Shown in pieces: positions 1 through 5,925 of a stretch of DNA of 64,000 nt. This DNA comes from Xanthocytophaga agilis (GTDB lineage: Bacteria > Bacteroidota > Bacteroidia > Cytophagales > 172606-1): the NCBI RefSeq assembly GCF_030068605.1, contig NZ_JASJOU010000001.1, forward strand, positions 868,001 through 932,000, given 5' to 3'. Position 1 is the stretch's first letter. Each line of letters begins with the position of its first letter. Below the pieces are notes generated by a model that saw only the letters and a list, made by a program, of their open reading frames with translations, was not told the DNA's origin and ran no database searches. The position numbers were made by a program, and so were the translations under genes.

Positions 1-452
1 AAGAGAAATGCGGTCAATGAATTAATTAGAATTCCCACACCTGCAACAATTGCCACTTCACGGCCCTCAATGGGTTGCGGGTGATTTAGTCGCATGGCTG
101 CTTCATAGCCAATGCCTCCAATTGCAATCAATAGGATAACTGCATTCAATAAGGCAACCAGTATAGTTGTTTTTCGATAGCCATATGTGAATGTATGGGT
201 TGGCTTTACTTTGGCAAGACGAAATGCCAGGAGTGCTAATGCCAGACTGGCTACATCACTTAGATTATGACCCGCATCTGTAAGCAGAGCCAGTGATTTG
301 GAGTATAGGCCCACCCCGGCCTCAATAACTACAAACGCCAAATTGAGCACAATACCTACCACAAAAGCTGTGTTTATATTGGTGATAGGGCCATGAATAT
401 GTCCATGATCGTGTGAATGACTGTGCCCGTTATGCGAATGTGTATGTGCCAT
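1..452 (-). CDS. CDF-family cation efflux transporter (5' part; C-terminus beyond the window)
   Basis: Only the first about 150 residues are inside the window, translated by eye from the ATG at 452. The protein opens with a histidine-rich segment (MAHTHSHNGHSHSHDHG), as is usual for zinc-type cation diffusion facilitators. Hydrophobic helices follow, with the family motif LLTDAGHNLSDVASL, whose H and D residues form part of the transmembrane metal site. It should export Zn2+ or a similar divalent metal across the inner membrane in exchange for protons. It lies 44 bp downstream of the copper ATPase on the same strand, so the two are probably co-transcribed. The metal cannot be fixed from sequence alone. 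Confidence 0.93.
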   Translation of the reverse strand, partial: MAHTHSHNGHSHSHDHGHIHGPITNINTAFVVGIVLNLAFVVIEAGVGLYSKSLALLTDAGHNLSDVASLALALLAFRLAKVKPTHTFTYGYRKTTILVALLNAVILLIAIGGIGYEAAMRLNHPQPIEGREVAIVAGVGILINSLTAFL

Positions 453-496
453 AAGATGCAGTAGTAATGGTTGTAAAGTTGCGTACAATCAGGAAT

Positions 497-2926
497 CTAA
501 TTTTTCCAGCGTAACCGAAGGCTATTGCTTACTACAGATACAGAGCTCAATGCCATCGCAGCTCCTGCAATCATGGGATTGAGCATATACCCATACAATG
601 GATAAAGAATACCTGCTGCAACCGGAATACCTATCAGGTTATAGATAAATGCCCAGAACAGATTTTGCCGGATAGCATTGACTGTCAGACCGGATAAACG
701 AATGGCTTGAGGGATACGTTGCAGATCGGATGAAATAAGTGTCATTTTGGCTACATCCATGGCAATGTCTGAACCTTTGCCCATCGCAATACTTACATCT
801 GCCTGTGCAAGTGCCTGTGAGTCATTGATACCATCACCCACCATTGCCACAACTTTTCCCTGTTGTTGCAAGTCTTTGATAAAATCTGCTTTATCAGATG
901 GCATTACCTCTGCCTTATAGTGCCGTATACCGACTTGTTTTGCTACTGCCTGAGCTGTATGTGCATTGTCCCCTGTGAGCATATAAATTTCAATGCCATT
1001 CTTTTGCAAACGACTGATTGCCTGAGAAGATGTCTTTTTAATTGTATCTGCAATAGCCAGAATAGCTAACAATGTGTTGTCTTCTGAAAAGAAAATTACC
1101 GTTTTACCTTCTTTTTGCAAAGTTTGGGATTGATCTTTTAGTGTAGAATCAGCAGAAATGGCATTTTCTTCCATAAAGCTTTGACTACCTATCCGATAGG
1201 TTTTGCCCTCATACATGGCTTCTACACCTTTCCCTGTGATACTTTCAAAAGAGTCCAGCGATACGGATTTGATGCCTTCTTTGCGTAACTTTCTTACAAC
1301 AGCCTCTGCCAACGGATGCTCAGATTGTGATTCAATTCCCAGCAAAATGGATTTCTGCATATCAGATAATGAAGTGATTGAATGCATATCAGTCACTTCT
1401 GGCTTTCCTTCCGTAATGGTTCCGGTTTTGTCCAGCACAATAGCTGTAATTTTATGTGCTAGTTCCAGGCTTTCTGCATCTTTAATCAAAATGCCATTTT
1501 CAGCACCTTTACCAACACCTACCATAATGGCAGTAGGAGTTGCCAGACCGAGAGCACAAGGGCAGGCTATAACCAAAACGGTGACCAGCGCCAGTAAGCC
1601 TTGTGTAAGAGCATTGTCTCCTCCAAAGATTTGCCAGAGTACAAAGCTCAGCATAGCAATACCAATGACTACCGGTACGAAGATACCTGCAATTTTATCT
1701 ACCAGTTTCTGGACAGGTGCTTTGCTACCTTGAGCTTCCTGTACCCGTTGAATAATGTGCGCCAGTAAAGTATCACTTCCTACTTTCTCTGCTATAAACC
1801 GAAAACTTCCTTTTTGATTGACTGTACCTGCCAGTACTTTTAACCCTTCTTTCTTTTCCACAGGTATTGGCTCTCCGCTGATCATGCTTTCGTCTACAAA
1901 GGAACTGCCTGATAGTACTAAACCGTCCACAGGTATTTTATCTCCTGGACGAACCAGTAATTTATCTCCAACTTGTACCTCACTGATAGTGATTGTTTGT
2001 TCCTGTCCTTCCGGAGTGATTCGGGTAACTTGTTTGGGTTGTAAACCAATGAGTTTTTTGATCGCAGAAGAGGTATTGGATTTTGCCTGCTCTTCCAGCA
2101 TTTTTCCTAATAGAATAAAAACAATGACTACGGCAGCAGATTCAAAATATACATGTGAATGTAAACCTCTGTGATGGAAAAATTCGGGATACACTGTAGT
2201 GAATACACTAAATAGAAAGGCAATCCCAGTACTTAACGCTACCAGGGTATCCATATTAGCATTGCCATGACGAGCCAGTTTAAACGCATTCACAAAAAAG
2301 CTTTTACCAAATACAGACAATATAACTGCCGTTAATACCATCATAATCCAGTTGCCATAGGGAAAATCCATCCAGAACATCCCAATAACGACTACAGGTA
2401 CGGCAAGAACCGCTGACCAGATCGTTTTGAACTTTAACGCCAGGTAATGCTTTTGTTGAGCCTCTTCCTGAATATTGCGACCTTCTGCCTGTTCCAATAC
2501 CAGATCATAACCAACAGATTGAACCGCTTTACGGAGTTCCGCTGTGTCAAGAGTGCCTGGAATATATTCTACCTGCGCTGAGCCATTGGCATAGTTTACG
2601 GAAGCATTCACTACTCCTTTCTGAACCTTTAAAATACTTTCTACACTAATAGCACAGGATGCACAGGACATTTCCAATACAGGAAAGGTTTGTTTCAGTG
2701 TAGCTACATCATAGCCAAGATCCCGAATGGAACGTACAATTTGGGGAATGCTGTTTTTTTGCGGATCAAGGCCGACTTTCGCCCATTCATTATTTACATC
2801 TACGCTATGGTTTGTAATGCCATCAATTTTATCTAATTCCTGATCGACAAGCATTGCACAATGTTCATTGTCTACTCCAACCAATGGAATTTTAACAGAT
2901 GTGGTATGTTGAGTTGTTGTTTCCAT
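497..2926 (-). CDS. copA: Copper-translocating P-type ATPase (P1B-1)
   Basis: At 809 aa the length is normal for CopA. There are two N-terminal HMA domains. In the first (about residues 12-75) the metal site reads NEHC, so its first Cys is lost. The second has an intact MSCASC site (C88, C91). Membrane helices follow, then the CPC motif of the transport site (C455-P456-C457), the phosphorylation loop DKTGT (D499), the hinge GDGIND, and a C-terminal helix with [15 protein letters not shown]. The last two membrane signatures fit Cu+ rather than Zn/Cd specificity. It pumps cytosolic Cu+ out through the inner membrane. The start at 2926 is followed upstream by a dyad and a 21-bp repeat that look regulatory. 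The downstream neighbour is the CDF gene. Confidence 0.96.
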
Positions 2927-2932
2927 GACAGC

Positions 2933-3024
2933 TTTGTATCAACGTGTTGTTATGATACAAAAGTATACCTTCAATGCCTGAATAGTATTACATAATTTTC
3001 GGGAAGTATTGCAAGATTTTCGGT
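2933..3024. promoter_or_regulatory. Candidate operator region of copA: 9-bp dyad and 21-bp tandem repeat
   Basis: Just upstream of the copA start are inverted arms TTTGTATCA (2933-2941) and TGATACAAA (2953-2961). Further up are two copies of AGTATTRCAWRATTTTCGGK at 2984-3003 and 3005-3024, matching at 17 of 20 positions with a period of 21 bp. Direct half-sites two helical turns apart are typical of AraC-family binding sites. An AraC regulator with a metal-binding domain is encoded at 5359-5925. That it is the ligand of these sites is inference. Confidence 0.5.
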
Positions 3025-3145: not shown

Positions 3146-4024
3146 ATGTTAGCCGCATCCATTTCTCAGATAGAGTATAAAGACAAATGGGTAAGAGCCA
3201 TTATTCTACCCCTTATGTTATCCCTCCAGTTATATCTGGACTATAGTGAAGATTTTTGGGATTGGAAGTTGGCTTATTGCATAGGTGCAGATATTCTGAC
3301 TGCTATTTTGGTTTGGGAGTTAATACGAACGGTTGTTTTACTATTAGACCGATATTATCCCTGGCAGAATGGTTTTCTGAAACGATTGTTACTCCAATTG
3401 CTGATAACTGTTCCCGTCTGTCTGGTACTTATTATTGGTATCACCTGGACGACTTACACATTTATTGTCACGCCACATGATCCCAATCTGTGGCTTTACT
3501 TTTATAAAATTGATTTGCCTGTTATTGTAATTTTGCTGTGTATGCTCAATTTTATTTATGTAAGCCTTTACTTTTATCGCTTCCACGAACAACAAAGTAT
3601 TACCCTGCCATCCATATTGACAGATCTGACAGAGCAAAAACATGTTCGAAAACCAAAAACTGAAACTAATCGACTAATGATAAAATCAGGAAAGAAGGAA
3701 TTAATTCTGGATATGTCGGAAGTTGCAGGAGCGTTTGTTACAGATGGAATTTGTTGGGTAGTAACTACAGAAGGAAAGAAATTGGTTGTGGATTGTTCGT
3801 TGGATTATCTGGAAGAAGCATTGAAAACTGGCAATTTCTTTCGGGCTAATAGGCAATTGATTCTTTCTCGTATGTTGGTAAAATCAATTCATTCAGATAC
3901 ATATGGAAAAATAAAAGTAGTGCTTAAAGAAGGTAGTGGAGTATCAGGAGAAATCTTTGTGAGCCGAACTAAAGCAGCAGAGTTTAGGAAATGGATAAAA
4001 GTGGATATAGCATTTCAGGGTTAA
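3146..4024 (+). CDS. Membrane-bound LytTR-family transcriptional regulator
   Basis: This is a 292-aa one-component regulator. About residues 15-150 hold four hydrophobic segments, typical of the membrane part of Bacteroidota LytTR proteins. A short linker (about 150-175) leads to a C-terminal LytTR DNA-binding domain (about 175-287) with the characteristic FFRANRQLILS stretch. There is no response-receiver domain and no kinase domain. It presumably senses a membrane or envelope signal and binds DNA directly. It is divergent from copA (219 bp between the starts) and precedes the serine hydrolase at 4131, its only same-strand neighbour and possible target. The signal is unknown. Confidence 0.88.
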   Translation: MLAASISQIEYKDKWVRAIILPLMLSLQLYLDYSEDFWDWKLAYCIGADILTAILVWELIRTVVLLLDRYYPWQNGFLKRLLLQLLITVPVCLVLIIGITWTTYTFIVTPHDPNLWLYFYKIDLPVIVILLCMLNFIYVSLYFYRFHEQQSITLPSILTDLTEQKHVRKPKTETNRLMIKSGKKELILDMSEVAGAFVTDGICWVVTTEGKKLVVDCSLDYLEEALKTGNFFRANRQLILSRMLVKSIHSDTYGKIKVVLKEGSGVSGEIFVSRTKAAEFRKWIKVDIAFQG

Positions 4025-4082
4025 ATGAATAGCATTTCAGTCAAAAAGTTGATTCCAAGTCTGGAAATGAAAGAATATGGAT

Positions 4083-4125
4083 CTTGTTTTGAGTGGTCAT
4101 TATTATTTCATTCACTCAAAACAAG
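4083..4125. promoter_or_regulatory. Perfect 13-bp inverted repeat directly before a start codon
   Basis: CTTGTTTTGAGTG (4083-4095) and CACTCAAAACAAG (4113-4125) are perfect complements around a 17-nt loop. The structure ends five bases before the ATG at 4131 and has no T-run, so a leader hairpin or an operator is more likely than a terminator. Confidence 0.5.
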
Positions 4126-4130
4126 TAACT

Positions 4131-5228
4131 ATGAAAACGTATTTAATAAGTATTCTACTCCTTGCCAACTGTCTGGGTTGTAAAGAAGATGCTACCCAAC
4201 CAATTGTGACAAACAATCCACTGACTTCTTCACTTGACCAGACAGTTCATAGCACAGTCGAAAAATATGCTTCTGCATCCAGTACCGGAGGATTTGTGAT
4301 TGGAATCTTTCGCAATGACAGTACATTTATTTATCGGTATGGACACAGCAATAAGGAGACACATCAACTGCCTGATGAAAATACTATTTTTGAAATAGGT
4401 TCTATCTCAAAAACCTTTACTGCTGCACTTATGACTGATTTTACTGCTAGCCGGCAGATAAATCTGGAAGAGCCAGCCAGTAAATTTTTACCTCTTTCTT
4501 TTTTGGAAAAAAATGGAATTCAGGTAAAACTAAAAGATCTACTCAATCATAGTTCCGGATTACCCAGGTTGCCTGATGACTTGGCAAATGGAGCAAATAC
4601 TCAAGAACCGTACAAACATTATGATAGTACGAAAGTATATGTATATCTGAAAAATAAACCATTGAAGAATACACCTGAAACAGTATTCGAGTATTCAAAT
4701 CTGGCTTTTGGAGTTGCAGGGCTAATACTTGAACGAAATACAGGGAAAAGCTATGAACAACTTGTGGAAGAGAAGATAGCTATATCTCTGGGAATGAAGG
4801 ATACAAAAATAACTTTGTCTGAAGATGAAAAGCTGAGATTTGCAAAAGGGTACGATGCGAAAGGTAAACCTGTAGCTTATTGGAATGATCTGAATGGGTT
4901 TAAGGGAGCAGGTGCATTGCGTTCTACTGTAAAGGATTTGTTAGTATATGCACAAGCAAATATAAACCCTGGCAATAATACAATAGGCAAGAGTTTCGCA
5001 TTTTGTCATCAGATTACATCGACTTTAGATGACAAGAAAGTAGGTTTAGCCTGGTTTGAACTCACTATTAATGGTCATGCAGTATATGTGCATGACGGAG
5101 GAACAGGAGGTTTTACCAGTTTCATCCTTTTCTCAAAAGAGAAGAAAAGAGCACTGGTATTATTGGCTAATAACTCAACAGAAAACTTGAGTAGTGTGAT
5201 AGATAGGTTAAGTAAATCGGTCTTTTGA
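4131..5228 (+). CDS. Serine hydrolase of the beta-lactamase/class C family, predicted lipoprotein
   Basis: I place the start at the ATG at 4131 because it gives a lipoprotein signal peptide ending in LLANCLGC. An in-frame start at 4077 would only add sequence inside the upstream hairpin. The 365-aa protein has the serine beta-lactamase/D,D-peptidase motifs: SISK (S91, K94), a YSN tyrosine motif in EYSNLAFG, and HDGGTGGF in place of the KTG box. Such proteins usually act as esterases, peptidases or amidases in the periplasm. The substrate cannot be read from sequence. A bidirectional terminator follows. Confidence 0.9.
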   Translation: MKTYLISILLLANCLGCKEDATQPIVTNNPLTSSLDQTVHSTVEKYASASSTGGFVIGIFRNDSTFIYRYGHSNKETHQLPDENTIFEIGSISKTFTAALMTDFTASRQINLEEPASKFLPLSFLEKNGIQVKLKDLLNHSSGLPRLPDDLANGANTQEPYKHYDSTKVYVYLKNKPLKNTPETVFEYSNLAFGVAGLILERNTGKSYEQLVEEKIAISLGMKDTKITLSEDEKLRFAKGYDAKGKPVAYWNDLNGFKGAGALRSTVKDLLVYAQANINPGNNTIGKSFAFCHQITSTLDDKKVGLAWFELTINGHAVYVHDGGTGGFTSFILFSKEKKRALVLLANNSTENLSSVIDRLSKSVF

Positions 5229-5358: not shown

Positions 5359-5925
5359 TTATACCTGATCCAGAGACTTACGTTTCTTTTCTTTCAACTG
5401 TTTGAAATGACTTGGTGTCAATCCTGTCACTTTTTTGAATTGATTGGAAAGATGTTGTACACTGCTATAGTGAAGTTGATCGGCTATTTCACTCAATGAA
5501 AGTTCATCATACATGAGTAGTTCTTTCACCTTTTCTATTTTCTGATTGATAATGTATTTTTCAATCGTAATACCTTCTACTTCTGAAAAAAGACTGCTTA
5601 GATAGCCATAGTCACGATTAAGCTGTTCAGCTATATAATCGGAGTGATTTACTTTTTGCAGATTATCATTTTCTGAATGAATCAGGGTAATAATTACTGT
5701 TTTGATACGTTCAATCATTTTTTGCTTTTTGTCATCCAGCAGTTCAAATCCTACTTCTTCCAATTTTTCTCTGAGTGACTGAGCTTGATTGACAGCTAAT
5801 TCTTCCTGTATCTGTACTTCTCCCAACTGCATATCTATAGGATGTAATCCTTCTTCCTGGAGTACCTGTTGTACAACCATCTTGCAACGGTTGCAGACCA
5901 TATTTTTTATATATAAAGTATTCAT
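5359..5925 (-). CDS. AraC-family regulator with N-terminal HMA-like metal-binding domain
   Basis: This 188-aa protein joins two modules. Residues 1-65 look like an HMA domain with the metal motif MVCNRC (C11, C14) and a following helix, as in copper chaperones and the N-terminus of CopA. Residues 75-185 form an AraC-type double helix-turn-helix (LSEIADQLHYSSVQHLSNQF, then GLTPSHFKQL). A cytosolic regulator that binds Cu+ (or a related ion) through its own HMA domain and then controls metal-efflux genes is the simplest reading. The copA promoter about 2.4 kb away has a 21-bp tandem repeat that could be its site. Sensing and target are inferred. Confidence 0.88.
   Translation of the reverse strand: MNTLYIKNMVCNRCKMVVQQVLQEEGLHPIDMQLGEVQIQEELAVNQAQSLREKLEEVGFELLDDKKQKMIERIKTVIITLIHSENDNLQKVNHSDYIAEQLNRDYGYLSSLFSEVEGITIEKYIINQKIEKVKELLMYDELSLSEIADQLHYSSVQHLSNQFKKVTGLTPSHFKQLKEKKRKSLDQV

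Follow-up and report, generated by a model that had tools for sequence, protein, structure and literature searches.

The analysed stretch of DNA, below called the window, comprises 64 kb and contains the gene of an HMA–AraC regulator at positions 5359..5925 of the reverse strand. The gene starts with ATG and encodes a protein of 188 aa, the N-terminal sequence of which begins with MNTLYIKNMVCNRCK; a 99% identical counterpart was found in Xanthocytophaga flavus. The protein is composed of an HMA-type N-terminal domain with the motif C11xxC14 (residues 3–64, positions 5734..5919, reverse strand), assigned by profile, model and fold comparisons, and an AraC-type DNA-binding domain, Pfam HTH_18 (residues 98–176, positions 5398..5634, reverse strand). 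The AraC half exceeds the curated Pfam scores, with 60.4 bits for HTH_18 (cut-off 33.6) and 48.6 bits for HTH_AraC (cut-off 26.6). Neither a MerR-type DNA-binding domain nor the CsoR domain PF02583 is present among the seven Pfam matches of the regulator, and no CueR model was found among the 25 of 33 NCBIfam matches listed.

By gathering score alone, the N-terminal domain does not qualify as HMA (PF00403): the Pfam match at residues 3–60 spans nearly the whole length of the model, but reaches only 17.9 bits against the cut-off of 24.8, and HMA was detected singly at E ≤ 0.001 in just 2 of 77 aligned family proteins. In one HHalign comparison, the N-terminal columns of the family were matched to pump HMA domains with a probability of 96.6 and an E-value of 5.6e-10, CxxC being aligned on CxxC; the partner domains came from pumps encoded at the survey loci and were picked by MxCxxC (55 before duplicate removal). 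The family profile also matched the solved metal-binding domains of ATP7B, CopA and CopZ. The AlphaFold2 model of the regulator (mean pLDDT 88.2) has the order beta-alpha-beta-beta-alpha-beta at residues 2–63, followed by a linker helix at residues 66–83 and the AraC helices. In VIA-align, residues 1–64 gave Z of 7.6–8.4 with GolB, Atx1 and CopZ, which are among the best structural matches, and Z of 7.3–8.1 with chains labelled prephenate dehydratase, AcuB and Rel ACT domain. Since ACT-type chains score nearly alike, the fold alone cannot distinguish HMA from other ferredoxin-like domains; membership by profile homology, combined with the ferredoxin-like order of strands and helices and with MxCxxC in the first loop, is fulfilled. 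The joining of an HMA-like domain with C11 and C14 directly to an AraC domain within 188 residues, as proposed in the earlier note, is confirmed; binding of metal by the HMA-type domain is inferred.

The predicted target is copA (positions 497..2926, reverse strand), encoding a P1B-1 Cu+-exporting ATPase, identified by TIGR01511 (623.8 bits, cut-off 397) and the motif M.SS. All pumps, including copA as P1B-1, were typed by the P1B motif classes. Contrary to the earlier note, the regulator is not adjacent to copA: the two genes lie about 2.4 kb apart in the 64-kb window, and two genes of the opposite strand intervene, namely, a LytTR-type gene (positions 3146..4024, forward strand) and a serine-hydrolase-like gene (positions 4077..5228, forward strand), both named by eye and not part of the system. 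A single operon of the regulator and copA in the window is ruled out by these two genes. In X. flavus (L038:5710-7181), the two intervening genes are partly deleted or split, and the regulator, the operator and copA are intact. Directly downstream of copA, an ORF at positions 3..488 (reverse strand), which runs off the window, has a His-rich start and by eye resembles CDF metal transporters. CopA has two HMA stretches according to Pfam, yet a single CxxC (residue 88) within its first 200 residues; its first HMA-like stretch (window positions 2831..2890, residues 13–32; GVDNEHC) is devoid of CxxC.

Residues M9, C11, R13 and C14 are invariant in the 77 aligned proteins, but C11 was part of one of the six search patterns, which biases this result. 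A less biased set is represented by 140 regulators from a phylum sample of 158 Bacteroidota genomes, each at least 90% complete, all of them from places outside the own genome. By motif, it includes 86 CxRC, 13 CxHC, 6 other CxxC, 20 SxxC and 15 degenerate members. Loss of CxxC in orthologues had been named in advance as grounds for refutation; conservation held for 105 of the 140 members, while the remaining 35 have lost the motif, none of them with a linked P1B pump.

A pump was considered linked if a P1B pump, typed by motifs, was located on the same strand no more than 3 kb downstream. Among the 86 CxRC members, 49 are linked to P1B-1 pumps, 1 to P1B-2, 2 to pumps with CPH and 1 to a pump of unclear type, and 33 have none; the share of P1B-1 (Cu+-type) is 49 of 53 linked pumps. 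All linked pumps of the CxHC members are of P1B-2 (Zn/Cd-type), being present in 10 of the 13 and absent from 3. By this criterion, none of the other CxxC (6), SxxC (20) and degenerate (15) members is linked to a P1B pump. Under a looser rule, accepting any match to CopA, linkage is present in 65 of 105 CxxC and 0 of 35 non-CxxC members. Of 80 named loci, 56 also have a P-type ATPase match in the downstream flank (up to 5 kb, some shorter), encoded on the same strand. In a quick tree of the family, built without the six motif columns, CxHC members form a single clade (SH-aLRT 100), and CxxC and non-CxxC states are separated by 5 changes. The link between CxxC and the pump is clustered on this tree, with few independent events, and its Fisher p of 2.7e-12 is therefore overstated; the test was dropped as independent evidence, and no significance was obtained for phylogenetically independent pairs. 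In CxxC loci without a directly following pump, 6 of 10 genes scanned (nine loci) bear HMA joined to MauE or ArsP_1; these six HMA-bearing membrane proteins are the downstream neighbours of some pump-less CxxC members.

Upstream of copA, a putative operator of two direct repeats with a period of 21 was found at positions 2984..3023 (reverse strand), for which there are no binding data. It is represented by two 19-nt units, identical in 16 of 19 positions and 21 bp apart, its end being 57 nt from the start codon of copA. The operator matrix was seeded by one site of another genus and trained on loci L039–L117 (80 sites), the window's genus being excluded. In the 64-kb window it scored 33.1 bits at 3023..2984 (reverse strand), followed by 11.4 bits at the same place with a shift by one repeat and 10.5 bits elsewhere. 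The connection of the regulator with copA is supported by this recovery, before the copA gene of the window, of a putative operator derived from other genera. With a sequence-only model from 52 foreign sites, the copA site is the top match in the own genome (E 6.6e-4, the next 0.023) and the sole match at E ≤ 10 in the window (E 8.1e-7, cmsearch). In a check by a different method, two places in the own genome (9.77 Mb) match the core pattern perfectly, one of which is the copA operator; with up to two mismatches, 88 matches were counted vs. 51 for a backward control, and the surplus beyond the copA site is weak at best. Weaker sites may be missed, since only 150 of the 11,910 first-look candidates of the own genome were scored by the model and, under stricter filters, only 112 in each relative. 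When all loci were scanned loosely for pairs with a spacing of 20 to 22, 27 were obtained, some places being counted repeatedly owing to overlapping loci, all at a spacing of 21, vs. 1–2 in shuffled sequence. No sign of autoregulation via the same operator was found, as the 12 highest-scoring sites in the window all lie away from the regulator start.

Sites scoring 14 bits or higher were found in the survey loci for 48 of 86 CxRC, 9 of 20 SxxC, 9 of 15 degenerate, 2 of 6 other CxxC and 1 of 13 CxHC members, counted per regulator, a few of which share a locus; no such site is present in 38 of 86 CxRC and 12 of 13 CxHC loci. At the same threshold, no site was detected in 140 loci that were each shuffled twice with unchanged base composition, and 2 of 130 loci read backwards had one. 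Two of the 130 survey loci share DNA with training loci, and without them the CxRC sites number 46 of 84. As loci without CxxC also carry sites, the site appears to be common to the whole family and is not in itself proof of copper control. By eye, an apparent variant of the repeat is located in CxHC loci just after the stop codon of the regulator. In 59 relatives of the window's genome, an operator match at E ≤ 0.02 is present in 22, and the regulator was found in 20 of these 22, compared with 13 of the other 37 (Fisher p 2.9e-5); a possible species overlap with the training loci is not excluded. Of the 38 operator hits in the relatives, 18 have a regulator gene no more than 5 kb away. Two operator-positive relatives, G037 and G041, are without a regulator match, and that of G023 is partial. 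The 149 sites are followed by a P1B pump in 74 cases, by an HMA–AraC gene in 3 and by other ORFs in 44, while 28 have no ORF of at least 100 aa; 12 of the 44 other ORFs contain GM[TS]CxxC in the first 50 residues. Operator-like sites were also noticed before small proteins that by eye resemble Dps/ferritin (L158:5079-5549 and L252:3038-3508), near a CxRC and a degenerate member.

The promoter of copA is represented by the −7 box TACTTTTG at positions 2958..2965 (reverse strand), 18 nt after the operator, the same spacing being present in other genera. The consensus of the −7 element in Bacteroidota is TAnnTTTG, and that of the −33 element is TTTG. TAnnTTTG with no more than one mismatch was found 17–19 nt after the 40-nt site in 120 of 143 unique sites (72 of 80 in training loci and 48 of 63 in survey loci) and is exact in 30. 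Offset 18 alone accounts for 96 box matches, with no more than 3 at any offset in the 80 nt upstream. With 18 nt between the operator and the −7 box, the downstream half-site of the operator lies where the −33 element would be, and at the position expected for TTTG the operator matrix reads AACA. With an operator at fixed spacing next to the promoter core and over the upstream element, the layout of a class-II activator is met. Judged by sequence, the arrangement of operator and −7 box is that of class-II AraC activators, and activation itself is inferred. A perfect 9-bp inverted repeat, TTTGTATCA/TGATACAAA, seen by eye at window positions 2933..2961, reaches from the −7 box almost to the start of copA; it is possibly a second regulator site or a hairpin.

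A match to the regulator at E ≤ 1e-25 is present in 75 of the 158 sampled phylum genomes and, at E ≤ 1e-15, in 33 of the 59 relatives. A genome-contig scan confirmed 483 relatives of the protein; 80 were kept, all of which carry names of Bacteroidota. Matches at E ≤ 1e-15 were also found in 31 plasmid records, all of Bacteroidota genera, mostly annotated as ‘AraC family transcriptional regulator’ or ‘helix-turn-helix’. The regulator represents a large, generically annotated family of Bacteroidota. In the own genome, a near paralogue (L118:7808-8368, reverse strand; 53% identity) has MVSLRC in place of MVCNRC, the first Cys being lost, and no copper gene was seen by eye near it. Side-by-side pairs of HMA–AraC paralogues, one nearer to the window protein and one more distant, were observed in several relatives (among others G003:C18, G006:C88 and G007:C551). 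The second operator match of the own genome (G000:C1:523022-523058; L292:5022, forward strand; E 0.023) has, by eye, a near match to the −7 box at the same spacing, and no ORF of at least 80 aa is present on the forward strand directly downstream; a small RNA could be expressed from it, or the SLRC paralogue could act on it. As for known copper regulators, no CsoR match was found in the own genome, while such matches are present in 4 of the 59 relatives. The CueR cut-off was passed in none of the 59 relatives, 56 of which have weaker MerR-type matches (best 81.9 bits vs. 147.4), and in 1 of 14 control genomes.

Related genomes and the shared target site upstream of copA suggest that the regulator is a sensor that turns copA on. 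It is probable, in our estimation, that it acts as a one-component cytoplasmic Cu+ sensor and activator of copA, both metal binding and activation being inferred. The HMA domain (M9-x-C11-x-R13-C14) would bind Cu+ via both cysteines, in the manner of copper chaperones. Metal loading, possibly with a Cu+ bridge between two HMA domains, may then drive dimerization or reorientation, and two subunits would sit head to tail on the direct repeat with its 21-bp period; the operator is derived from comparison, the dimer and its binding are presumed. A class-II contact with RNA polymerase would switch on copA, which is predicted to have its own operator despite the two genes between it and the regulator. 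The domain make-up, conservation, the shared repeat, its place before copA and the promoter spacing can be read from the DNA itself; binding of the regulator to the repeat, binding of Cu+ by C11 and C14, metal-driven dimerization or reorientation and activation are inferred. The idea of a one-protein Cu+ sensor, already put forward in the earlier note, gains support from CxxC in 105 of 140 members, the pairing with pumps and the copA operator, binding of Cu+ remaining an inference. This reading is limited by the absence of biochemical data, by the HMA match below the Pfam cut-off and by the 33 of 86 CxRC members without a typed pump. As a copper sensor of Bacteroidota, the regulator is a strong candidate that lends itself to direct testing.

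Part of the same evidence can be read otherwise. The operator overlaps the expected −33 place, where a repressor could act too: the apo-protein would cover the copA promoter and Cu+ would remove it, as with CsoR or CopY. Such a repressor, however, needs neither the fixed spacing of 17–19 nt found in 120 of 143 sites nor AACA in place of the −33 TTTG, and AraC proteins binding direct repeats beside the −35 region are mostly activators; we consider Cu+-released repression distinctly unlikely. It is unlikely, too, that the regulator controls copA in response to another metal or to thiol stress (Ag+, Zn2+, Hg2+, redox) rather than to Cu+. The protein of the window is of the CxRC type with a P1B-1 pump as its predicted target, and P1B-1 is present in 49 of 53 linked CxRC cases, which speaks against this; CxxC sites nevertheless bind other soft metals too, or form disulfides, and the CxHC members of the family pair with P1B-2 (Zn/Cd-type) pumps.

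It is also conceivable, although very improbable, that the N-terminal domain serves only for dimerization, being a degenerate HMA-like fold with cysteines that bind no metal. C11 and C14 are invariant in the 77 aligned proteins, a biased sample, and no linked pump was found for any of the 35 non-CxxC members; a degenerate fold would agree with the sub-threshold HMA score (17.9 vs. 24.8 bits), the similar fold scores of ACT-type domains and the persistence of CxxC-less members, 18 of 35 of which have operator-like sites.

Bacteroidota are major bacteria of gut, soil and marine environments, and Bizionia argentinensis is a member of this phylum. The regulator belongs to a known superfamily; no description of its sensor module, an HMA–AraC copper regulator, was found in a full-text literature search (titles and abstracts, with subscription journals mostly uncovered). 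According to the available part of a survey of 76 marine bacteria, the few Bacteroidota included had only two-component and ECF copper-regulator homologues, and no homologues of one-component Cu sensors are given for them there (PMC10141476). Copper genes of Bizionia argentinensis were the subject of a study in 2024, which, so far as its accessible text goes, reports MerR and CopY homologues without copper-binding sites and names two ArsR–SmtB candidates; its main text nowhere contains the word AraC (PMC11213822). Cytoplasmic copper sensing in Bacteroidota is unsettled, and the HMA–AraC protein is a concrete candidate with an operator, a promoter layout and a predicted target. The HMA variants of the family form a natural series for studying the origin of a transcriptional switch from a chaperone domain and the basis of metal choice. 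With about even confidence, a broader proposal can be made: HMA–AraC proteins would be phylum-wide metallosensors of Bacteroidota, structurally unlike MerR, CsoR, CopY, ArsR and Fur, and activators on a 21-bp direct repeat common to them; the residue before the second Cys would track the metal of the pump (Arg for Cu+, His for Zn/Cd), and paralogues without the first Cys would keep the operator code and read other signals.

Among known systems, the regulator shares its DNA-binding domain with AraC of E. coli (AraC/XylS family), as follows from Pfam, sequence and fold matches. The putative operator resembles araI1–I2 of E. coli, where two direct half-sites with a distance of 21 bp lie beside the −35 region. 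The sensor domain of AraC is a cupin, whereas the regulator has an N-terminal HMA-type domain of about 64 residues, and its presumed ligand is a metal ion. The nearest precedent found is YbtA of the Yersinia high-pathogenicity island, an AraC-type activator in the copper response, which responds to the Cu(II)–yersiniabactin complex, controls the yersiniabactin genes and requires CXXC (C206, C209) for activity, in the part of the paper available (PMC8725597). It differs in that its targets are yersiniabactin genes and not a copper pump, and no HMA domain is mentioned in that part (PMC8725597). CueR of the MerR family, as described in the available part of the marine survey, is a one-component Cu+ sensor activating copA, which is the role proposed for the regulator (PMC10141476). 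It has another DNA-binding fold and metal site and, according to the same partial text, acts on a promoter with a long spacer, in contrast to the direct repeat upstream of the −7 box (PMC10141476). The metallochaperones CopZ and Atx1 and the HMA domains of CopA are of the same domain type with MxCxxC as the N-terminus of the regulator; the regulator differs from them in that this domain is joined to a DNA-binding domain, and in CxRC members Arg precedes the second Cys.
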